From NCBI RefSeq assembly GCF_004341505.2, contig NZ_SLYP02000001.1:1822501-1886500 (forward strand): a stretch of 64,000 nt of DNA, written 5' to 3'. Of the stretch, positions 29,520 to 40,840 are shown piece by piece. The notes below the pieces were generated by a model. The model ran no database searches. It worked only from the letters and a program-made list of their open reading frames with translations, and had not been told where the DNA came from. The stretch comes from Sphingomonas sp. JUb134. GTDB taxonomy: Bacteria > Pseudomonadota > Alphaproteobacteria > Sphingomonadales > Sphingomonadaceae. The stretch's first letter is position 1; the number at the start of each line of letters is the position of its first letter. A program made the translations under genes and the position numbers.

Positions 29520-31187
29520 GTGAGCCCACAGACGAGTGACAATGTCGCTGCCGATGCCACCCCTGCTGGCACGACCAACTTCACTCCGGGAACGACGGAC
29601 GTCGTAAAGCTCCCTTATACGCCCGCCGAGGTCACGGGCTTCGCGCGCGAGGGCGACGCGCTGGTGGTCCGCCTGCAGGACGGTGGCGCCGCGCGGGTCG
29701 AGAATTTCTACACGCCGGGTGCGGATAGCACGCCCAAGGACCTGTTGCTGCAGGGCAGCGACGGCCGCGTCTGGCTCGCGCGCGCGCCGGTAGGCAGCAC
29801 CGAATTCAGCTTCATCGAAGTCGCCGCAGGCGACCAGCTGGTCGGCGGTGCGGTCGGTGCCGGCGCGGCCAGCGGCCTGGGCGCCTTCGCGGGCCCCCTC
29901 GCGGGCATCGCTGCCGGTTTCGCAGGCGGCCTGGTCGGCGGCGCGATCACCGGCGATGAGTCCGAAGACTCCGACGCTGATGCGGACTCCGACGCTGACG
30001 CGGATGCGGACGCTGACGCCGATGCGGATGCGGACGCTGACGCTGACGCTGACGCTGATGCGGACGCCGACGCTGACGCGGATGCTGACGCCGACGCCGA
30101 CGCTGACGCGGATGCTGACGCCGACGCTGACGCTGACGCTGACGCTGACGCTGATGCGGACGCGGACGCCGATGCTGACGCGGATGCCGACGCGGATGCG
30201 GACGCTGACGCTGACGCCGACGCGGACGCGGACGCTGATGCCGATGCGGATGCCGACGCGGACGCTGACGCCGACGCGGACGCTGACGCTGATGCGGATG
30301 CCGACGCCGACGCGGATGCTGATGCGGACGCTGACGCTGACGCCGACGCGGATGCTGATGCTGATGCGGACGCTGACGCTGACGCGGATGCGGATGCGGA
30401 TGCTGATGCGGATGCCGACGCTGATGCGGATGCTGATGCCGACGCTGATGCGGACGCTGACGCCGACGCGGATGCGGATGCGGATGCGGACGCGGACGCT
30501 GACGCTGATGCGGACGCCGACGCGGATGCTGATGCGGACGCTGACGCCGACGCGGACGCCGACGCGGATGCGGACGCTGACGCTGATGCGGACGCCGACG
30601 CCGATGCTGACGCGGATGCCGACGCGGATGCGGACGCTGACGCTGACGCTGACGCTGACGCCGACGCGGACGCGGATGCCGACGCGGACGCTGATGCCGA
30701 TGCGGATGCCGACGCTGACGCCGACGCGGACGCCGATGCTGACGCTGACGCTGACGCGGATGCGGATGCGGACGCCGACGCTGATGCTGATGCCGACGCG
30801 GATGCGGACGCCGACGCTGACGCCGACGCTGATGCGGACGCCGATGCGGATGCTGACGCGGATGCGGACGCGGACGCGGACGCCGATGCGGATGCCGACG
30901 CTGACGCTGACGCTGACGCTGACGCTGATGCGGACGCCGATGCCGACGCGGATGCGGACGCGGATGCTGATGCGGACGCTGACGCTGATGCGGACGCTGA
31001 CGCCGACGCGGATGCCGACGCGGATGCGGACGCTGACGCGGACGCTGACGCCGACGCGGACGCTGATGCTGATGCCGACGCGGACGCCGATGCGGATGCC
31101 GACGCTGACGCTGACGCTGATGCGGACGCCGATGCCGACGCGGATGCGGACGCGGATGCGGACGCGGACGCTTGTGAAGGGCGGTGA
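29520..31187 (+). CDS. BapA-like surface protein with Asp-Ala repeat, truncated by IS21
   Basis: The 555-residue frame starts at GTG. Residues 1-105 resemble the BapA prefix domain of large type I-secreted biofilm adhesins ([38 protein letters not shown]). A glycine/alanine-rich hydrophobic stretch follows (about 108-141). From residue 152 the chain is almost only alternating Asp-Ala, unbroken from 158 to 551. The last four codons (Cys-Glu-Gly-Arg-stop) are the terminal repeat of the adjacent IS element, so the original C-terminus, including any secretion signal, is lost. The product is probably not secreted. Type I transporter remnants directly after the IS fit the adhesin-secretion reading. 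Confidence 0.75.
29991..31172 (+). repeat. hexanucleotide GAYGCN tandem tract (Asp-Ala)n
   Basis: The 1182-bp tract is 197 tandem hexamers, each an Asp codon (GAC or GAT) followed by an Ala codon (GCT, GCG or GCC; I see no GCA). Higher-order copies are visible: the block at 30879-30967 recurs at 31083-31159, differing by two GACGCT hexamers, which shows growth by slippage or unequal crossing-over. Because of this structure all other frames are also open, producing large spurious ORFs on both strands. Its true copy number may differ from this assembly. Confidence 0.95.
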
Positions 31188-31200: not shown

Positions 31201-31280
31201 AGGACCGCCGGCGCAGTGCCGTCGGGGGCGGAGTAAAATCCGGCCAGTTGGTAAGCTGCTCCCTTTGCGGAGCGGCGGGG

Positions 31281-32768
31281 ATGTTTGTCGTGGAGAGCTA
31301 CGCAGCGGTCAGACGGTTTGTATTTGTCGAGGGGCATAGTCGCCGGGAAGCGGCGGAGGTGTTCGGGCTGAACCGGGATACGGTACGCAAGATGTGCCTG
31401 TATTCGGCGCCTCCTGGATACCGCCGGACGAAACCTCCGACCAAGCCGAAGCTCGGGACGCTGCTACCGGTTATCGACGCAATCCTGGCAGCCGACCGCG
31501 AGGCGCCGGGCAAGCAGCAGCACACGGCCAAGCGGATCTTTGAGCGGCTGCGCGACGAGCATGGCTATACGGGCGGCTACACGATGGTGAAGGACCATGT
31601 GCGGCTGTGCAGGGCCCGCGGGCGCGAGACCTTCGTGCCGCTGGCGCACCCGCCGGGGCATGCACAGGTCGACTTTGGCGAGGCGGTCGCGGTCGTCGGC
31701 GGGGAGCGGATGAAGATCCACTATTTCTGCATGTCGCTGCCGCAGTCGGATGCCTGCTTCTTCAAGGCGTATCCGCGCGAGACGACCGAGGCGTTTCTTG
31801 ACGGGCACGTGTCGGCATTCGCGTTCTTCGGGGGCGTGCCGCTGTCCATCCTCTACGACAACACAACCATCGCCGTGGCAAAGATCTGCGGCGATGGAAC
31901 GCGCGAGCGCACACGCGCCTTCACCGAGTTGGTCAGCCACTACCTGTTTCAGGACCGTTTTGCGCGTCCAGCGCGAGGCAACGACAAAGGCAAGGTCGAG
32001 GGGCTGGTGAAGTTTGCGCGCAACAACTTCATGGTGCCCGTGCCGGTCGCTGCCAATTTCGATGTCCTGAACGCCAGGTTCGAGGAGTCCTGCCGTACGC
32101 GCCAGGGCGAGCATGCCGGTCAGCACGCGCAGACCATTGCCGAGCGGCTGGCGGCAGACGTATCGGCATTGCGCACGCTGCCGTCCGTACCACTGGAGCC
32201 ATGCGAGAAACGCGCGGCGCGCGTGTCGTCGACCGCGATGGTGCGCTACCGGACCAACGACTATTCGGTGCCGACCGCGTACGGCTACCGCGACGTGATG
32301 GTGAAGGGGTTCGTCGACGAGGTCGTCATCATATGCGCGGGCGAAGAGATTGCCCGGCACGCGCGTTGCTACGACGAAGGCGTATTCGTCTCCAACCCAC
32401 TGCACTATCTCGCGCTCATCGAGACCAAGCCCGGTGCGCTCGACCAGGCGGCAGCCCTTCAGGACTGGAACCTGCCGGACATCTTCCAGCATCTGCGCCA
32501 CCTGCTCGAGGCCCGGATGGGCAACAAGGGTAAACGCGAGTTCATCCAGGTGCTGCGGCTGCTCGAGGCGATGCCGCTTCCCATCGTCACGGATGCCGTG
32601 ACCGAGGCAGTCCAGTTGGGCGCACCTGGTTTTGACGCGGTAAAACTCATCGCGCTGGCGCGTATCGAGCGCCGTCCGCCGCGCCTGGATTTAGCGGCGT
32701 ATCCGCACGTGCCCAAGATGGACGTCAAAACGACGTGCGCGGCCGACTATGCGGTGCTGGCAGCATGA
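31281..32768 (+). CDS. istA: IS21 transposase IstA
   Basis: The 495-residue transposase carries an N-terminal helix-turn-helix (HSRREAAEVFGLNRDTVRKM). The integrase-type DDE core has candidates Asp131 (AQVDFGEA), Asp193 (LYDNTT) and Glu240 (GKVEG). A C-terminal beta-barrel segment contains TNDYSVPTAYGYRDV, and the length is normal for IstA. The frame is open from 31248, but ATG 31281 gives the usual IstA N-terminus (MFVVESYAAVRRFV). With no frameshift or missing catalytic residue, it appears functional. It overlaps istB by ATGA. Confidence 0.93.
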   Translation: MFVVESYAAVRRFVFVEGHSRREAAEVFGLNRDTVRKMCLYSAPPGYRRTKPPTKPKLGTLLPVIDAILAADREAPGKQQHTAKRIFERLRDEHGYTGGYTMVKDHVRLCRARGRETFVPLAHPPGHAQVDFGEAVAVVGGERMKIHYFCMSLPQSDACFFKAYPRETTEAFLDGHVSAFAFFGGVPLSILYDNTTIAVAKICGDGTRERTRAFTELVSHYLFQDRFARPARGNDKGKVEGLVKFARNNFMVPVPVAANFDVLNARFEESCRTRQGEHAGQHAQTIAERLAADVSALRTLPSVPLEPCEKRAARVSSTAMVRYRTNDYSVPTAYGYRDVMVKGFVDEVVIICAGEEIARHARCYDEGVFVSNPLHYLALIETKPGALDQAAALQDWNLPDIFQHLRHLLEARMGNKGKREFIQVLRLLEAMPLPIVTDAVTEAVQLGAPGFDAVKLIALARIERRPPRLDLAAYPHVPKMDVKTTCAADYAVLAA

Positions 32769-33616
32769 CGGACAAGGACGCCATGCCGGTGGGCACGACC
32801 GCAGGTACGCCACAGGTGCTGCTCGCCCATCATCTCAAACAACTCAAACTGCCAACCGTTCTGCGCGAGTACGAAAAGGTCGCGCGCGAATGCGCGCAAG
32901 GCGGGGTCGACCACACGCGCTACCTGTTGCGGCTTATCGAGTTGGAGCTCATCGACCGCGAGCGCCGGACCATCGAACGACGGATCCGCGCAGCCCGTTT
33001 CCCGGCTGTGAAGAGCTTCGACACCTTCGAGTTCACCGCCATCCCCAGCCTGAACAAGATGATGGTGGTCGAGCTCGCACGGTGCGAATATATCCTGCGC
33101 CGCGAGAACGTCATTGCGCTCGGCAACAGCGGGACAGGCAAGACGCATGTAGCCCTCGCGCTCGGCCTGGCGGCTTGCCAGAAGGGCTTCACAGTCGCCT
33201 TCACTACCGCGGCCTCGCTGGTGAACCAGTTGATGGAGGCGCGAGACGAGCGACGGCTGCTCAAGCTCCAACGCGAGATGGCGGCCGTGAAGCTGCTCGT
33301 CGTCGATGAACTCGGCTACGTCCCGTTGTCCCCGACCGGCGCCGAACTGCTCTTCGAGGTGCTGTCGCAGCGCTACGAGCGCGGCTCGACCATCATCACC
33401 TCCAACCTGCCGTTCGAGGACTGGACGCAGGTGCTCGCCTCCGAGCGGCTGACCGGCGCACTGCTCGACCGGCTCACCCACCATGCCACCATCCTGACCA
33501 TGAACGGCGACAGCTATCGCCTCAAGCAGTCCACCGGACGCAAACGTCGCGGGGCGGAGCAAAACCAGGCCAGTGCCCTGTCCGACCCGGACACCGGTGA
33601 GATATTATCTTCCTGA
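32765..33616 (+). CDS. istB: IS21 transposition helper ATPase IstB
   Basis: The 283-residue AAA+ ATPase is the partner of IstA in target selection. Walker A is GNSGTGKTH and Walker B is LLVVDELGY; the downstream sensor region is SNLPFEDW. The start overlaps the istA stop (ATGA), the standard coupling in this family. The last 20 or so codons run through a direct copy of the IS end repeat (GGCGGAGCAAAACCAGGCCA near 33553), which may mean the 3' end of the gene arose by duplication of the terminal repeat. Confidence 0.93.
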   Translation: MTDKDAMPVGTTAGTPQVLLAHHLKQLKLPTVLREYEKVARECAQGGVDHTRYLLRLIELELIDRERRTIERRIRAARFPAVKSFDTFEFTAIPSLNKMMVVELARCEYILRRENVIALGNSGTGKTHVALALGLAACQKGFTVAFTTAASLVNQLMEARDERRLLKLQREMAAVKLLVVDELGYVPLSPTGAELLFEVLSQRYERGSTIITSNLPFEDWTQVLASERLTGALLDRLTHHATILTMNGDSYRLKQSTGRKRRGAEQNQASALSDPDTGEILSS

Positions 33617-33717: not shown

Positions 33718-33745
33718 CTGGCCTGGTTTTGCTCCGCCGTTGACA
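33718..33745 (-). repeat. right terminal repeat of IS21 element
   Basis: This is the inverted partner of the left end. It reads GCTCCGCCGTTGACA at its outer edge and directly touches the broken ABC transporter gene. Confidence 0.85.
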
Positions 33746-34570
33746 ATCGCGGGCCTCAACCGGGTCATGGCGCTGCCCGTCGATCACCCGGACCGTGAGT
33801 CCCGCGTGCACCTGCCCCATATCGCCGGCGATCTGACGGTGCGGGATGCAGTGTTCCGTTATGGCGACCCGCAGTCCCCGGCCGCCCTGACCGTCAGCCG
33901 GCTCCAGATCGCGGGCGGCGAGAAGATCGCGATCCTCGGGCGCAACGGAGCCGGTAAATCGACGCTCCTCCAGGCGCTGTCGGGTCTCCTGGAGCCGGTC
34001 TCGGGGGAGGTGCTCGTCGATGACGTAGCGCTGGGCCAGGTGGACCCGGCGGACGTGCGGCGTGACATCAGCCTGTTGTCGCAGCGCGCGCGGCTGTTCC
34101 ATGGCACGATCCGCGACAATCTGCTCATGGGTGCGCCCCACGCCACCGACGAGGATATCCGCTCGGTGCTGGCGATCGTGGGGGCCGACGAGTTCGTCCG
34201 GCGCCTGCCGCGAGGGCTGGAGCATCTGATCTTCGAGGGCGGGTCCGGCCTCTCCGGGGGGCAGGTCCAGGCACTGCTGCTCGCGCGCCTGCTGATCCGC
34301 GATCCTCGCGTCATCCTGCTGGACGAACCCACCGCATCGATGGACGACGCCGCGGAGCGGAACTTCATCGCGCGCTTTCGGGATTGGAGTGCGCTGCGAA
34401 CCGTGGTGATCGCCACCCACCGCACCCGCGCGCTGGAACTGGTCGACCGGCTGATCGTGGTGGAAGGCGGCCGCATCGTTGCTGACGGTCCTCGCGATGA
34501 GGTGCTGGAGCGGCTTCGCACGCCGCGGGCGCCGGCGAAGGTGGTGCCGGCGCGAAAGGATCGGATCTGA
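33746..34570 (+). pseudogene. type I secretion ABC ATPase, N-terminally truncated
   Basis: About 275 codons of an ABC exporter remain. The whole nucleotide-binding domain is intact: Walker A GRNGAGKST, Q-loop SQRARLF, signature LSGGQ, Walker B VILLDEPTASMD and the H-loop in ATHRT. The membrane-spanning domain and any N-terminal peptidase-like domain (usually 400 residues or more) are missing, replaced by the IS21 end. A TTG at 33740 inside the IS repeat could start a soluble ATPase fragment, but it could not transport alone. It resembles LapB-type exporters of giant adhesins. Its stop overlaps the HlyD start. Confidence 0.85.
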
Positions 34571-35763
34571 TGGCGACGAGCGCCGACGTCCTGAATGGCG
34601 CCTGGGTGTTCGGCGATGCCGATGGTGCGCGGCTTGGCCGCGCGACGCGGCTGATCTGGGTGATCGTCGCGTGCATGGCCGCGCTGTTCGCCTGGGCGTA
34701 TTTCGCTCGGCTGGACGAGGTGGCGACCGGGGCAGGGCGGGTGGTACCCTCCACGCGCGAGCAGGTGATCCAGTCGCTGGAAGGCGGTATCCTCGCAAAG
34801 CTGCTGGTGAAGCAGGACGACATCGTTCAGCCTGGCCAGATCCTGGCGCAGCTCGACCCGACCCAGAGTGCCTCGACCTTCGAGGAAAGTGCTGCCAAGT
34901 ACCGCGCTGCGCTTGCCAGCGTCGCACGGCTGGAAGCGGAGGTCGGACAGACTGCTCCCATATTCCCGGCGGAACTCGATCCCTATCCCGAACTCAAGGC
35001 CAAGGAACTGCGCCTGTACCAGGCCCGACGGAGCAGCCTGGACAAGTCGCTCGCCTGGCTGCGCCGCTCGATCGCGTTGCTGACGAACGAGGTGCAGATC
35101 GGCCAGCGGCTGATCGCGGTCGGCGCGGCCAGCAACGTCGAGGTGCTGCGGCTGCAGCGGCAGCTTGCCGATCTGGAATTGAAGCAGGCCGACCTCACCT
35201 CCGAATATATCGTCCAGGCTCGCGAGGAGCTGGCAAAGGCGAACGCGGAAGTGGCGACGTTGTCGCCGGTGGTGAAGGGGCGGGCGGACACGCTTGCCCG
35301 CCTGACGTTGCGCTCCCCCGTGCGAGGGATCGTCAAGAACATCGAGGTGTCGACGATCGGCGGCGTCATCCCGCCCAACGGCCGTTTGATGGACATCGTG
35401 CCGCTGGACGACAAGCTCCTGGTGGAGGCGCGCATCTCGCCGCGGGACATCGCCTTCATCCACCCGAACCAGCCCGCCAGCGTCAAGATCACCGCCTATG
35501 ACTATGCGATCTACGGCGGGTTGAAGGGGAAGGTCGCGACCATCTCGCCCGATACCATCAAGGACGAAGCAAAGCCCGACGTCGAATATTACCGCGTGCT
35601 GATCCGGACCGACAGTGACGCCCTGGTCAACAAGGCCGGTCGCCGTTTCCCGATCGTACCGGGGATGGTCGCGACCGCCGACATCCACACCGGCAGCAAG
35701 ACCGTGTTCCAGTATCTCGTGAAGCCGTTCAACCGGGGGCGGGAGGCGTTGCGGGAGCGGTGA
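34570..35763 (+). CDS. HlyD-family type I secretion adaptor
   Basis: This 397-residue membrane-fusion protein has one N-terminal transmembrane helix (LIWVIVACMAALFAWAYF, about residues 26-43). A lipoyl-like half-motif follows (EGGILAKLLVKQDDIVQPGQ), then a coiled-coil hairpin (about 95-245) and a beta-barrel region with VRGIVKNIEVSTIGG. It links an inner-membrane ABC exporter to an outer-membrane TolC channel; no TolC gene is present here. It starts within the stop of the ABC remnant (TGATG). It is intact but probably idle, since its exporter partner is broken. Confidence 0.9.
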   Translation: MATSADVLNGAWVFGDADGARLGRATRLIWVIVACMAALFAWAYFARLDEVATGAGRVVPSTREQVIQSLEGGILAKLLVKQDDIVQPGQILAQLDPTQSASTFEESAAKYRAALASVARLEAEVGQTAPIFPAELDPYPELKAKELRLYQARRSSLDKSLAWLRRSIALLTNEVQIGQRLIAVGAASNVEVLRLQRQLADLELKQADLTSEYIVQAREELAKANAEVATLSPVVKGRADTLARLTLRSPVRGIVKNIEVSTIGGVIPPNGRLMDIVPLDDKLLVEARISPRDIAFIHPNQPASVKITAYDYAIYGGLKGKVATISPDTIKDEAKPDVEYYRVLIRTDSDALVNKAGRRFPIVPGMVATADIHTGSKTVFQYLVKPFNRGREALRER

Positions 35764-36791
35764 GCGTGCTCGGGCTTTGGTTGGGGGCGGCAAGCCTGTT
35801 CCTGTCGCCGCAACTGGAGACCCCGATGCCGCCACGGCTGATGCCCAACGAAGCCCAGCGACCCGCACCCTTGCGCATCCCGCGCGGCCGCCAGACCTTC
35901 GACGCGCGCGAGGCGCTGAACGGGTCCACCAGCAGCCGGCGGCGCTGCACCGACGTGCCCGATGCCTATTGGGTTCCGGTCCGCGGCGGCGGTGCCTGCA
36001 TCCGCACCTATCCGGCCGGCAACCCGCGCGCCGGCGGCACGATGCTGGTGTACCTGCCGGGTGACGTGCTGCTGCGCGGACGCGGCGGCGTCCGATTGAT
36101 CGCGGGGAGCTATGCGCGGCGCTCTCCGGCCGACATTCGGCAGGAAATGGCCGGCTGGTCTCGCGACGGCGGCACGCCCGCGATCTTCCTCGCGCGGCCC
36201 GGCCTCTACGGATCTTCGGGCAATCATGGCGCGAGGCGGCGGTTGGACGAGGTGCGGCTCGTCGACGGTGCGCTCGATCGGATCAAGGCGCGGTATCGGG
36301 TGTCGCGCTTCATCCTTGCGGGGCATTCCGGGGGCGGGCACCTGGTTGCGGCGCTGCTCGACCGGCGGCGCGACATCGCCGGCGCATTCATCAGCTCGGG
36401 GCTGGTTTCGGCGGCAGAGGTGATGCGCGCCTACCAGAAACGGCGCGGGCCCGACGGCGGTCCCGTCGAGGGTCCGGCCGCGGTCTATGACCCGATTGCC
36501 CATGTTGGGGGGATTCCGAAGCCGGGACCCGACATCTTCGTCCTGTCGGACCCCGGCGACCGGGTCGTGCCCTTCCTCAGCCAACGCCACTATGTGGAGC
36601 GGCTGCGCAGCGCCGGGCTGCACCCCACCCACATCCTGCTGCGGGGTGAGGGACGTACCCGGCACCTGCTCGCCGAGCCGCTGAAGGCGGGCGCCGCACT
36701 CTATGCGCGGGGAGAGGACGCGGCTGCGATCAGCGCGGCGTTGCGCGCAATGGCACCGCTGCCGCCCGTGCCGGAGGAAGTGCGGAACTGA
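35760..36791 (+). CDS. alpha/beta-hydrolase family protein, secreted or membrane-anchored
   Basis: The 343-residue protein starts at a GTG overlapping the HlyD stop (GTGA). A short hydrophobic N-terminus (VLGLWLGAASLFL) could be a signal or anchor. The nucleophile elbow is LAGHSGGGH, and DPGDRVVPF and a late RTRHLL supply likely acid and base positions. The substrate is unknown. Tight coupling to the secretion adaptor suggests a role linked to the exported adhesin or envelope, but that is inference. Its 3' end overlaps the convergent minus-strand gene by 62 bp. Confidence 0.75.
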   Translation: MSVLGLWLGAASLFLSPQLETPMPPRLMPNEAQRPAPLRIPRGRQTFDAREALNGSTSSRRRCTDVPDAYWVPVRGGGACIRTYPAGNPRAGGTMLVYLPGDVLLRGRGGVRLIAGSYARRSPADIRQEMAGWSRDGGTPAIFLARPGLYGSSGNHGARRRLDEVRLVDGALDRIKARYRVSRFILAGHSGGGHLVAALLDRRRDIAGAFISSGLVSAAEVMRAYQKRRGPDGGPVEGPAAVYDPIAHVGGIPKPGPDIFVLSDPGDRVVPFLSQRHYVERLRSAGLHPTHILLRGEGRTRHLLAEPLKAGAALYARGEDAAAISAALRAMAPLPPVPEEVRN

Positions 36792-39700
36792 GCAGCGCGC
36801 GCGCGGCTGCGTCGCGCGCACCGCGGGTGGGGGCGCCCAGCACGGCCGCGATCCAGCGCCTGCCATGCCCATCGGTCACCGAAAGCAGCAGGTGATGGGC
36901 ACGCGCGCCGACGCTGCCGGTGCGCAGCCCGTCGACGCCCGCCACCGTGCCGATCAGCCGGTTGGTGTTGGGATAGGTTGCCCCCTTCCACGCGAACCAC
37001 GGCTTGGCCGAAAGCGCGTGGACGGCGGGCGCGTGGGTGAGCACATGGGCACCCAGCCGGATCGCATCGCCACCGGTGATCGCCTGACCCAGGCCGAGGC
37101 CGCTGGGGGAAGCGAAGCGGCTCGCCGTCATCCCGATCGCCCGCGCTCGCGCGTTCATTTCGGCGGTAAACGCCTCGGCCGATCCGCTATGCCACTCCGC
37201 CAGGGCGTGCGCCGCTTCGTTCGCCCCGACGATCGCGGTCGCGGCCATCAGCTCGCCGAGCGTCACGCGCTCCCCCGCCTCGAACCGCCAGCGGCTGTCC
37301 ACCGTCGCAGCAGTGGGTGAGACGGAGATCGGCGCGTCCTCCGCAAGCTCGAGTTCGCGGCGGCGTTCATCGACGAGGCAGAGAGTGAGCAGCTTCGCCA
37401 GAGCCGCGGGGTGGTGCGCCGCATCGGTGTGTTCGGAGACGACCATGCGCTCCGCTTCCAGATCGTAGAGCAGCAGGCTCTGCGGCGGGGTTGTCTGCGG
37501 CGCCGGCGCCCGCAGCAGTGGGGCAGGGGGAGCGCTGCTTGCAGCCGCCTTGAGCCAGGCGACCAGCTCGTGGATGCGGCGGCTGTTCGATCCCTTGAAC
37601 AGGACCACGTCGCCATCGCGAAGCTCGGCACGGACCGCTGCGCGAAGCCCCTCCAGGCTCTCCGCGTGCACGCCACGCTGCCCGCCCGGAAGCGCCTCCC
37701 AGAAGCCGTTCCACAAGGCGCCGACCGCATGCACGCGCGCGATCCGTTGGTCGACGGCGTCGGCGAGCTGGCGGTGGAGCGGTTCCTCGGCCTCGCCGAG
37801 TTCGGCCATCTCCCCCAGCACCGCCATGCGCCGCATGCCCGGACGCTGGGCGAGATCGGCCAGCGCGGCGGCCATGGAGGCAGGATTGGCGTTGTACGCA
37901 TCGTCGATCAGCGTCACCCGCTTGCCGTCGATCACCAGCGGCAGCGTCTCGCCGCGGCCGGGGAGCGACCGGAAGCTCGCGAGCGCTTCGATCGCCGGTT
38001 CGATCGGCTGGCCCAGTGCCGCCACCGCGCCAAGGGCCGCCAGCGCGTTGAACGCCATGTGCTCGCCCGACGCGCCCAGCGTGAAGCGTACCTGGCGGCC
38101 GAATACTTCGGCTTCGACCTCCCGCGTTACACCGTCATAGGAGAGCAGCCGCAGCTCGCATCCGTCCGACCGGCCATAGTGGATCACCCGCAGCCGTCGC
38201 GCTCGGGCGGCGGCATGTACGATATCCCACTGGTCCATGTCGCGGTTGAGGATCGCGATGCCGCCGGGCGCCATGCCGAGGAAGATGGCGCTCTTGGTGC
38301 GGGCGATGTCGGCCACGCTGCTGCCGTTGGTCAGATGCGCGGGCGCGATGTTGGTGAAGATCGCGACGTCCGGCCGCGCCAGCCGCGCGCTGTGCGCCAT
38401 GCGCCCGACCGCGAGCTCCAGCACGACGTGTTTGGCGTCGGCCGGAACCGAGGCGAGGTTCCAGGCGACGCCATGCGGCAGATTGGCGTTGTGGGCGCTG
38501 CGCCCGACCGTACCGAACGGCTCCAGCGCGTGGGCGAGCATCGCCACCGCCGTCGTCTTGCCGGCGCTTCCGGTGACGGCGAGCACGGGGACCGACAGTC
38601 GCTGGCGCGCCGCGCGTCCGAGTTCGAGGATGGCATTGCCCGTGTCGGCGACGCGCAGCACCGGCATGTGGGGCGGTAAGGCGCCTGGGTCGCCATCGGT
38701 GACGATTGCGGCCGGCGGCGGCGACAGGCTCGCAAGCGCGGCCGGGCGGATCCCGCGGCCGGTGTCCCTTGAGCGGACCACCGCCAGCTGGCCCGGGCGG
38801 TAGGTCGGCGGATGGATGCAGACGCCGCGTGCAGACCAGCCGGCGGGCGGCGGCACCTCCCAGCTGCCTCCGGTCGCCGCGACTAGGCGATCGGCGTCCC
38901 ACAGGTCCGCCGGACCTGAGGGCGCTGCGAGCGGACGCAGCGGCTGACCCTGCGTGCGATAGTGGTGATAGGCGACCAGGCCGGAGAGATAATGCTCGAC
39001 GTCGTCGATCCGCACCCGGAAGCCTTGGTGGCGGATGAAGAAGCTGCCGGCGATGCGGTCTGGGCGGGCGAAGTCCATCGCCAGCTCCGGCCAGAAATGC
39101 CCGTTCAGCAGGTGCCGCGCACGCGCCTCCAGCGCCTCGTTGAAGCGCGCGATGTCCACTTCGGCGAGCAGGTGGCGATGCTCCGGAAGCTCGGCGATGC
39201 GCGACAGCATCGCATGCGCGGCCATCATCAGTTCGAGCAGCGTAGGAAAGGTGGTGATCCGGTCCCGAACGAAGTCGAGGTAACCGGCGACGTTGCGGAT
39301 GCCGAACTGGAAATAGCGCGCTTCCGGCCGCACCAGCGTCAGCTCGTTGGTGCAATAGCCGAGCCAGTGGTCGTGGTGCCGCCAATGCTCGGCCGCGATG
39401 AAGTGGTCGTAGGCGCGCTCCACCACCGCCAGCCAGCGCGGATCGCCGGTCAGCTGGTGAAGGCGCATCAGCGCGAAGGCAGCTTCGCCCTCATAGTAGA
39501 TCGTGCGGAACGGCTGGACGACCGCCAGGTCGGGATAGTGCAGCACATGCGCGAAGGCACCGGTCGCCGGATCCTGCATGGAGCGGATGCCGAGCGCCAA
39601 CTGCTCCATCAGGGCCAGATGGTCGCGGCAGCCGGTCGCCTGCGCATGGCGGGACAGTGCCAGGATCGCGACCGCGCTGCCGCCCAGCTTGATCTCGTCG

Positions 39701-40593
39701 CCCACGTCGACCAGGAACGCGGCCTCGCTGCCGTCCGCGAGCGTGGCCGGGCGGATCAGTTCGCGCACCAGATAGCCGAGCGCGCGCTCGATCGCGGCGG
39801 CGAGTTGCGGATCGCGCAGCATCTCCCAGGCCTCGATCATCGAATAGGTGGAGCTGGCATGGCGCAGCGCGTTGTAGGCGTCGATCTTTCGGTCGAAGCA
39901 GGGATGGTAGCCGTAGACGAAGCGGCCATCCTCCCCGACCTGTCGCGCAAGGTGGCCGGCGCCGCTGCGGACCAGTGCCGCCACGTCCTCCGGCGTCAGC
40001 GGGTCGAGCTGCCGCCGGCCGCGCTCGAGGCCGCTGTCGTGCAGGACGACGCAGGTGCCGTCCGCATCGGCGAATACCGCCTGGGTCGTGAACACGAACA
40101 ACGGTTGATCGTCGGCAAAGTCGATCTGGGTCGCAGGCCCGTATTTGCGGCGCGCGTAGATGGTGAAGTTGCCCTCGTTCACCACCGCGTGGGCGATGGC
40201 GTTGCCGCCATAGAGCATGGCGTTGGCGTTCAGTTCCTGCTCCAGGAAGGCACGCTCGAACTCCGCGTCGAGCGCTATCCCGTAACGGAAATAATTGCGC
40301 TTGGTCTGGCGCAGGCTGGCCTTCAGCTTTGCCCAGCTGGTGGGTTCGACCTGGTCGACCCTCTCCACGCGCAGCCAGCGGGGAGGATCTCCCGCAGTCG
40401 CCGCCTCGATCTCTGCGGCCAGCCGCTTCCACGCCGCTTCCAGGCTCTCGCCGCGCGCGGTCAGGACCTGCGGTCTGCTGTTTCCCGAGCTGAAAGCGCC
40501 GAAGAGCGTGACCGTCGGGGGCGAACCCTGGGCCGCAGGCGTCCTCGTGTTCATGAGCCTGAAGAGGCTCGCCATCATTTCCGCGCTCGACAT
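36730..40593 (-). CDS. three-part fusion: helical toroid-like domain, MurF-like ligase, degenerate DacA-like domain
   Basis: The 1287-residue protein has three parts. Residues 1 to about 560 form a mostly helical domain I do not firmly recognise; its repeated helical hairpins (GGSAVAILALSRHAQ, EGEAAFALMRLHQLTGD) resemble alpha/alpha-toroid enzymes. Residues about 590-1025 are a Mur ligase: ATP loop VTGSAGKTT, central NLPHGVAWNL, and DAYNANPASM as in MurF. Residues about 1035-1285 resemble D-Ala-D-Ala carboxypeptidase (S11), but the SxxK serine is Ala1064 (AALAK), SxN is GAN and KTG is RTG, so it should not hydrolyse peptides. ATG 40593 is chosen for AGGA seven nt upstream; ATG 40683 is possible. 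Function is unknown, perhaps wall-related scaffolding. Confidence 0.75.
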   Translation of the reverse strand: MSSAEMMASLFRLMNTRTPAAQGSPPTVTLFGAFSSGNSRPQVLTARGESLEAAWKRLAAEIEAATAGDPPRWLRVERVDQVEPTSWAKLKASLRQTKRNYFRYGIALDAEFERAFLEQELNANAMLYGGNAIAHAVVNEGNFTIYARRKYGPATQIDFADDQPLFVFTTQAVFADADGTCVVLHDSGLERGRRQLDPLTPEDVAALVRSGAGHLARQVGEDGRFVYGYHPCFDRKIDAYNALRHASSTYSMIEAWEMLRDPQLAAAIERALGYLVRELIRPATLADGSEAAFLVDVGDEIKLGGSAVAILALSRHAQATGCRDHLALMEQLALGIRSMQDPATGAFAHVLHYPDLAVVQPFRTIYYEGEAAFALMRLHQLTGDPRWLAVVERAYDHFIAAEHWRHHDHWLGYCTNELTLVRPEARYFQFGIRNVAGYLDFVRDRITTFPTLLELMMAAHAMLSRIAELPEHRHLLAEVDIARFNEALEARARHLLNGHFWPELAMDFARPDRIAGSFFIRHQGFRVRIDDVEHYLSGLVAYHHYRTQGQPLRPLAAPSGPADLWDADRLVAATGGSWEVPPPAGWSARGVCIHPPTYRPGQLAVVRSRDTGRGIRPAALASLSPPPAAIVTDGDPGALPPHMPVLRVADTGNAILELGRAARQRLSVPVLAVTGSAGKTTAVAMLAHALEPFGTVGRSAHNANLPHGVAWNLASVPADAKHVVLELAVGRMAHSARLARPDVAIFTNIAPAHLTNGSSVADIARTKSAIFLGMAPGGIAILNRDMDQWDIVHAAARARRLRVIHYGRSDGCELRLLSYDGVTREVEAEVFGRQVRFTLGASGEHMAFNALAALGAVAALGQPIEPAIEALASFRSLPGRGETLPLVIDGKRVTLIDDAYNANPASMAAALADLAQRPGMRRMAVLGEMAELGEAEEPLHRQLADAVDQRIARVHAVGALWNGFWEALPGGQRGVHAESLEGLRAAVRAELRDGDVVLFKGSNSRRIHELVAWLKAAASSAPPAPLLRAPAPQTTPPQSLLLYDLEAERMVVSEHTDAAHHPAALAKLLTLCLVDERRRELELAEDAPISVSPTAATVDSRWRFEAGERVTLGELMAATAIVGANEAAHALAEWHSGSAEAFTAEMNARARAIGMTASRFASPSGLGLGQAITGGDAIRLGAHVLTHAPAVHALSAKPWFAWKGATYPNTNRLIGTVAGVDGLRTGSVGARAHHLLLSVTDGHGRRWIAAVLGAPTRGARDAAARALLSSALPPARAAAVPLRATPR

Positions 40594-40840
40594 GCCAACA
40601 TCCTGCAATCCAAACGGGAATTTGGCGAGCGCAGGTTTACGCAATGCTAAGACGGCGCCGTGCGCCATCGCGGCGAGTTGCATCGCAGGCGCGGCGTCCT
40701 ACGTTGATCCCAGAAGCTTCGCGGAGCGGCCCTCCGAAGATCCTGCACTCGGTAGGCACCAGCTCGGCTGCGCCCAACTGAGCCAATCAAAAACTCCCGG
40801 GTGGTTGAGCGCGTCGTCGCCCGCGGAGAGGAAAGGGAGA

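Follow-up and report, generated by a model that had tools for sequence, protein, structure and literature searches.

The question raised by this locus is what a MurF-like ligase does when it is joined in one chain to a long N-terminal domain and to a DacA-like S11 peptidase domain that has lost its catalytic residues. The gene for this three-part protein is at 36730..40593 on the minus strand of a 64,000-nucleotide stretch of Sphingomonas sp. JUb134 (contig NZ_SLYP02000001.1, positions 1,822,501 to 1,886,500). The whole stretch is here called the window and the protein the window protein. With moderate confidence, we read the window protein as a cytoplasmic maturation enzyme of a dipeptide-repeat adhesin, which would decorate the Asp side chains of the repeat tract before export. 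This reading draws on the architecture of the protein and on the linkage of its family to adhesin and secretion genes. It also draws on the ligase residues that are retained and the MurF motif that is lost, on the repeated inactivation of the S11 domain and on the exchange of partner enzymes on the N-terminal domain (N-domain).

Architecture and the ligase domain

The open frame at 36730-40683 encoded 1317 amino acids with no interruption. The likely start at 40593 is Met31 in this numbering, which is used throughout; it is the start given in an earlier note made from the letters of the window, and it agreed with the start of homologue P0002. Pfam searches placed Mur_ligase_M at residues 703-886, Mur_ligase_C at 919-1032 and Peptidase_S11 at 1064-1286, and each of these matches passed its curated threshold. 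Overall, three parts were distinguished on the minus strand: the N-domain (residues 31-581, 38941..40593), which is the module common to the family, the MurF-like ligase (residues 590-1045, 37549..38916) and the S11 domain (residues 1064-1297, 36793..37494). The earlier note had read these as a fusion in one frame, and both the Pfam matches and the homologues confirmed it. A sequencing error or two joined genes was ruled out by the presence of the same three parts in the seven closest homologues (77-97% identity). No strongly hydrophobic segment was found in the window protein with Kyte-Doolittle 19-residue windows, the highest mean being 1.47, and no ATP-grasp domain was found with Pfam or glycosyltransferase family 4 (GT4) domain with family model scans. 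At E 1e-80 the family was found in 1 of 387 genomes of a class-wide sample and the sole match was the window genome itself, which made this count uninformative.

The ligase retained the P-loop, in agreement with the intact ATP loop noted earlier, as well as the NANPxSM and GEMxELG motifs, which it shares with MurF along with the fold. Lys797, which we take to be the carbamylated lysine of Mur ligases, was invariant across a 26-sequence alignment. The window protein differs from MurF in its fusion to two further domains and in its N-terminus, where the DSR...DGHxF-type motif of the genome's own MurF, which presumably binds UDP-N-acetylmuramic acid, had no counterpart in it or in the aligned family members. 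Scores with the MurF models were below the curated cut-offs (283 vs 544 for NF010693 and 259.5 vs 288.6 for TIGR01143), and the Mur part also matched the cyanophycin synthetase model below its cut-off. The earlier note had asked for an ordinary murF elsewhere in the genome, and one is present: among seven Mur_ligase_M matches, four were within about 8 kb of one another, and one of these four is a separate MurF retaining the N-terminal motif. The motifs suggest that the ligase is an ATP-dependent carboxylate-amine ligase with an acceptor other than that of MurF.

Linkage to dipeptide-repeat adhesins

The best 80 of at least 592 loci of the family were compared; several genera were repeated among them, including ten Variovorax, and the loci are not independent. 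A tract, defined here as at least 8 Asp-(Ala/Ser/Thr) repeats within up to 10 kb on each side, was found in cis at 51 of the 80 loci. The other 29 comprised 18 with incomplete flanks and 11 with full 10 kb flanks. These 11 loci belonged to 10 genomes, nine of which encoded an adhesin with a BapA_N domain, in eight of them with a tract (at least 6 repeats); one of these eight tracts was just beyond the flank and the others were elsewhere in the genome. The ninth BapA_N genome (L141) had a mixed Asp-Ala/Asp-Gly stretch missed by the repeat pattern, and no BapA_N match was found in the genome of L053. Clustering of the neighbouring frames, with clusters named from the Pfam matches of the window and from annotated relatives, showed HlyD-, ABC- and TolC-type genes at 53, 52 and 49 of the 80 loci, respectively, and a hydrolase-type gene at 26. 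Overall, the family travels with giant (Asp-Ala)n or (Asp-Ser)n adhesins and secretion genes. An (Asp-Ala)n adhesin and the genes for its secretion are thus a better fit than the "unusual amino-acid or wall-linked polymer" of the earlier note.

A controlled comparison was made within the genus. The family was found at E 1e-100 in 6 of 151 genomes and BapA_N in 25, and all six family genomes were among these 25 (p = 1.2e-5). A tract by BapA_N was present in five of the six family genomes vs none of the other 19, in which the regions around BapA_N were scanned (Fisher p = 1.1e-4; p = 5.2e-4 after removal of six BapA_N regions under 5 kb). The exception among the six, G096 (L121), encoded a 711-residue N-domain-type protein that matched the N-domain only (residues 55-578) and is too short for a Mur part; ligase and tract are absent together in this genome.

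In addition, 54 records of a plasmid collection matched the N-domain. Examination of 19 plasmid regions picked for variety showed a tract (at least 6 repeats) in 17; the exceptions were from Variovorax (L128) and Acinetobacter (L133), the latter with immunoglobulin-like repeats and no tract. Acinetobacter BAP-like proteins with Ser-Asp tracts have been reported (PMC4647330). In Staphylococcus, Listeria and Enterococcus, the N-domain frame was downstream of a surface protein with an Asp-Ala/Ser tract. An SdrD-like protein of S. simulans with a 1204-residue Asp-Ala/Ser tract was followed by an N-domain gene and a Mur ligase gene, a Listeria LPXTG protein with an Asp-Ala tract was followed by an N-domain gene alone, and in Enterococcus the N-domain frame came after the surface protein. 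The linkage thus goes with the repeat tract, whether the adhesin is a type I secretion substrate or a Gram-positive surface protein.

Other features of the plasmid loci were also recorded. The Mur ligase beside the N-domain gene of S. aureus pN10CSA27 (L132) was annotated as two short frames and looks broken. A staphylococcal Mur ligase (L096:10447-12507) had about 230 C-terminal residues with no Pfam name, and a plasmid relative (L095:4997-7039) was similar to it in length and end. Sulfitobacter plasmids L097 and L130 carried condensation-domain genes and a polyketide synthase beside an N-Mur gene and a BapA-prefix adhesin.

The N-domain and the S11 domain

The N-domain was described in the earlier note as long and all-helical. 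The helical part was recovered as an (alpha/alpha)6 barrel of the cellobiose-2-epimerase/AGE fold at residues 227-581, in a match at fold level; an alpha/beta part precedes the barrel, so that "all-helical" did not stand. No AGE family match to the N-domain was found in Pfam. When its profile was searched against the sequences of solved structures, two matches were obtained, both of them weak (E 0.0043 and 0.16). The Listeria N-domain protein alone gave weak matches to EpiA (2.2e-4) and LanM (1.2e-4), both far below cut-off. Alignment of 15 sequences from two phyla showed 65 invariant N-domain positions, with Arg, His, Glu and Asp frequent among them.

The enzymes found with the N-domain differed between loci; the substrates of their families are carboxylates, Asp or Ser. 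In Klebsiella the N-domain was fused to an SdgB-like GT4 enzyme (E 1.4e-40, 139 bits vs a cut-off of 800) beside (Asp-Ser)n tracts, while in S. epidermidis ADQBG a separate SdgB-type enzyme (764 bits, cut-off 800) was next to the N-domain, beside 233 Asp-Ser repeats. In A. tumefaciens Tul002 the N-domain was fused to a YheC/D ATP-grasp and two cyanophycin-synthetase-like ATP-grasps (373 bits, cut-off 877), and the fusion adjoined 250 Asp-Ala repeats; in P0129 and P0180, too, a YheC/D ATP-grasp was joined to the N-domain. By eye, 13 of 14 listed N-domain proteins of 700-850 amino acids had a domain with the HxD...H pattern known from Asp/Asn hydroxylases, and P0164, the one scanned of this set, gave a Pfam match below cut-off (E 0.0047). 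The hydroxylase fusion was not placed in a genome: 2 of 99 Pseudomonas-genus genomes matched, both over the N-domain part only. A rule pairing Asp-Ser tracts with glycosyltransferases and Asp-Ala tracts with ligases was suggestive and was broken by L073, where (Asp-Ser)n is beside a Mur-type protein.

Such fusion to very different enzymes would also be expected of an escort or chaperone that keeps the acidic, disordered tract ready for export, with the fused enzymes secondary or acting on other targets, and N-domains with no adjoining ligase occur beside Asp-Ala tracts in Listeria and on one S. epidermidis plasmid. However, the invariant charged residues in an enzyme-type barrel and the retained catalytic-type residues of the Mur part speak against it, and we regard an escort as unlikely.

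Larger proteins of the family were also found. P0089 contained the N-domain, a Mur ligase, a degenerate S11 domain, a CapA/PGA_cap part and a second Mur ligase; P0095 had the same layout by its sequence, domain scans having been made on P0089 only, and the two are 2261 and 2289 amino acids long. The CapA part of P0089 also matched the model of the lasso-peptide epimerase MslH below cut-off. P0080, P0088 and P0107 were N-Mur proteins of about 1220 amino acids with an extra C-terminal part, in which a MarR-like helix-turn-helix was matched in P0080 and, below cut-off, in P0088.

The CapA/PGA_cap part and second Mur ligase in one chain, together with the weak cyanophycin synthetase match of the Mur part, would suit a ligase that makes a separate poly-glutamate- or cyanophycin-like polymer, exported beside the adhesin or joined to its end. 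Among the neighbour clusters that were named, however, the recurrent ones are secretion genes, adhesin and hydrolase, the constant neighbour is already a polymer (a polypeptide), and the CapA part also gave the sub-cut-off epimerase match. A separate polymer is accordingly given a low probability, equal to that of the escort.

The S11 domain of the window protein had AALAK, GAN and RTG instead of SxxK, SxN and KTG. The replaced positions are Ala1094 at the Ser position (37402-37404; Ala1064 of the earlier numbering), Gly1153 at the SxN position (37225-37227) and Arg1254 at the KTG position (36922-36924), all on the minus strand, so that the three losses reported in the earlier note were correct. 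Its statement that the fold around them is kept was supported by a fold model, which superposed on PBP6 with a root-mean-square deviation of 1.8. The domain resembles DacA/PBP5-type S11 carboxypeptidases in fold and differs from them in having no catalytic Ser or Lys and, in the window protein, no strongly hydrophobic segment.

Comparison of 38 S11 sequences (34 of them different) showed Ser/Ser/Lys at the three positions in 24, Ala/Gly/Arg in 12 and Gly/Asn/Asp in two (P0089 and P0095), with no intermediate. The Ala/Gly/Arg sequences were the ten of the window clade, P0016 and P0081; a mutation local to the window strain was ruled out, as all ten sequences of the clade carry the set. Intact sequences included Psychrobacter proteins just 36-38% identical to the window protein. 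In two genomes the S11 domain was encoded separately, in a following frame; its motifs were intact in L057, and L049 had KSG in place of KTG. The earlier note had asked for the conservation of its Ala1064 and had named homologues with an intact serine as counter-evidence. Such homologues exist: the intact Ser/Ser/Lys triad of 24 of the 38 sequences makes the dead state a derived one of some lineages and not the nature of the family.

On a tree of the N-domain and Mur parts (29 sequences), the Ala/Gly/Arg lineages required three changes. A single loss was rejected, as a tree with the three lineages as one clade failed the approximately unbiased test (p = 3.8e-7; a quick tree of the 29 sequences, without P0089, P0095 and near-copies, with the group named after the residues seen). 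On the S11 tree the dead state required four changes, two of them forced by well supported branches. The trees suggest that the S11 ancestor was active.

Repeated loss of catalytic residues is also what a functionless, decaying leftover would show. The ratio of nonsynonymous to synonymous substitution rates (dN/dS) among three species of the window clade was, however, 0.16-0.20 for the dead S11 domain, which is thus under purifying selection; the Mur part gave 0.16-0.18 and the N-domain 0.10-0.23. With the fold retained as well, and one replacement set throughout 12 sequences of three lineages, we consider decay of the S11 part improbable. Because its dN/dS is like that of the Mur part, the dead domain appears to be kept for some use, not as a serine peptidase, and the same Ala/Gly/Arg set in three lineages would fit a binding pseudoenzyme. 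The earlier idea of a peptide-binding pseudoenzyme is partly supported, by the kept fold, the purifying selection and the convergence of three lineages, but not as a trait of the whole family, in which 24 of 38 sequences are intact. That three lineages lost the S11 active site in parallel and ended with identical replacements is a clean case of a penicillin-binding fold that may have been reused as a binder.

Proposed maturation of the adhesin tract

In the proposed mechanism, the N-domain would engage the adhesin at its long (Asp-Ala)n tract, in the cytoplasm and ahead of secretion. Before the adhesin is exported, the Mur ligase part would amidate Asp side chains in the tract, which is the simplest reading covering the window protein. 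The S11 domain next to the ligase would trim or transfer the added group where it is active, as in the ancestral state, and where it is dead, as in the window protein, it would only hold that group. A D-Ala-containing peptide as the donor is a guess from the MurF and S11 ancestry. A fuller version, in which the MurF-like domain amidates tract Asp with D-Ala-containing peptides, the S11 domain reads, trims or transfers them and the AGE-fold N-domain is the core of a phylum-crossing system for chemically remodelling Asp-X repeat proteins, is speculative and unlikely. In that version the protein backbone of the adhesin would bear peptidoglycan-like stem ends by the hundred, and ligases, glycosyltransferases or hydroxylases would be alternative plug-ins on the N-domain. 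An alternative MurF in ordinary peptidoglycan synthesis or recycling is very improbable, with the N-terminal motif gone, MurF scores under the cut-offs, murF already present in the Mur gene cluster and adhesin and secretion genes as recurrent neighbours.

Known systems share parts of this proposal. SdgA and SdgB modify Ser-Asp tracts of staphylococcal adhesins and their genes are near the adhesins (PMC3794999). Similarly, the window gene is near an adhesin remnant (29520-31187), and in Klebsiella the N-domain is itself fused to an SdgB-like enzyme; the window protein differs in being a MurF-like ligase with no GT4, and an Asp-Ala tract offers no Ser hydroxyl. The cyanophycin synthetase CphA1 has a Mur-like domain by which the Asp side chains of a repetitive chain are decorated with Arg (PMC9262961), and decoration of Asp side chains is also what is proposed here. 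The chain would in this case be a ribosomally made protein, and the window protein has no ATP-grasp, although the relative L127 does carry ATP-grasps that are cyanophycin-synthetase-like.

BapA of P. denitrificans, like the proposed substrate an Asp-Ala repeat adhesin, is exported by a type I secretion system (T1SS). It has 891 Asp-Ala repeats making up 1,782 of its 2,211 residues, and it runs at more than 300 kDa vs 212 kDa calculated (PMC5588039). Its authors considered that the migration may reflect the odd composition, did not exclude modification and offered several possible roles for the tract; the high apparent mass fits a modification. The word "ligase" is absent from the main text of that paper on BapA and bapBCD (PMC5588039). 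A protein named as from P. denitrificans (P0218) was an N-domain protein by protein-level match.

Several points weigh against maturation of the tract by the ligase. The weakest point of a ligase-centred reading is that the N-domain may itself catalyse something, because 65 of its positions are the same in all 15 proteins aligned from two phyla. In Listeria NCTC7974 the N-domain beside the Asp-Ala adhesin has no adjoining ligase, so that the N-domain may be the actual enzyme, with the ligase in a secondary role. The surroundings of L053, L128 and L133 showed no tract, the genome of L147 (G649) has a second BapA_N adhesin with no tract, and the type I secretion locus of G096 has a BapA adhesin with immunoglobulin-like repeats and no Asp-Ala tract. 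At L073 the repeat chemistry and the partner enzyme are not matched one-to-one. The best-match loci are not independent and the genus comparison is the sole background rate for tracts. No report of a modification of the Asp-Ala tract was found in the openly licensed PubMed Central (PMC) literature. Finally, the adhesin and transporter are broken in the window strain, where the ligase gene has no obvious present job.

The broken genes and the neighbours described with them here are on the plus strand. The truncated adhesin, the proposed substrate (29520..31187), has a BapA_N prefix and a 402-residue Asp-Ala tract at 29967-31172, and covers the first 551 of 1779 residues of the adhesin of S. desiccabilis (G063), in comparison with which TolC is also missing from the window's stretch. 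An IS21-type transposase pair (31248..33616) occupies the place of the sister species' adhesin C-terminus, TolC and ABC N-terminus. It is followed by a C-terminal remnant of the T1SS ABC transporter (33740..34570), which corresponds to residues 463-737 of the 737-residue transporter of the sister species, and by a HlyD-type T1SS adaptor (34570..35763), 98% identical to that of the sister species. The IS21-type element broke the adhesin and transporter genes in the window strain. Besides the remnant, only ABC matches of 28-30% identity and no full-length close copy were found elsewhere in the genome, and a TolC query against the whole window genome, run with no positive control, gave no match at E 1e-10. 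The ligase gene is still intact because the break is presumably recent. An alpha/beta hydrolase gene (35760..36791, plus strand) overlaps the ligase gene tail-to-tail by 62 bp and is of the type that recurs at 26 of the 80 loci; its product might act on the modified adhesin.

Modification of adhesin repeats is known from SdgA and SdgB, and decoration of an Asp-Ala tract by a Mur-type ligase seems undescribed: no description of the N-domain or of a ligase on Asp-Ala repeats was found in the openly licensed PMC literature. We know of no Mur-type ligase that acts on a protein side chain, and the window protein would be the first if the proposal is true. It would then give a reading for a domain that currently carries the annotation "hypothetical protein" or "poly(glycerol-phosphate) alpha-glucosyltransferase". 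Asp-Ala and Ser-Asp tracts form the bulk of some giant biofilm adhesins, and a dedicated N-domain with swappable Asp- or Ser-acting enzymes makes the role of the tract directly testable.

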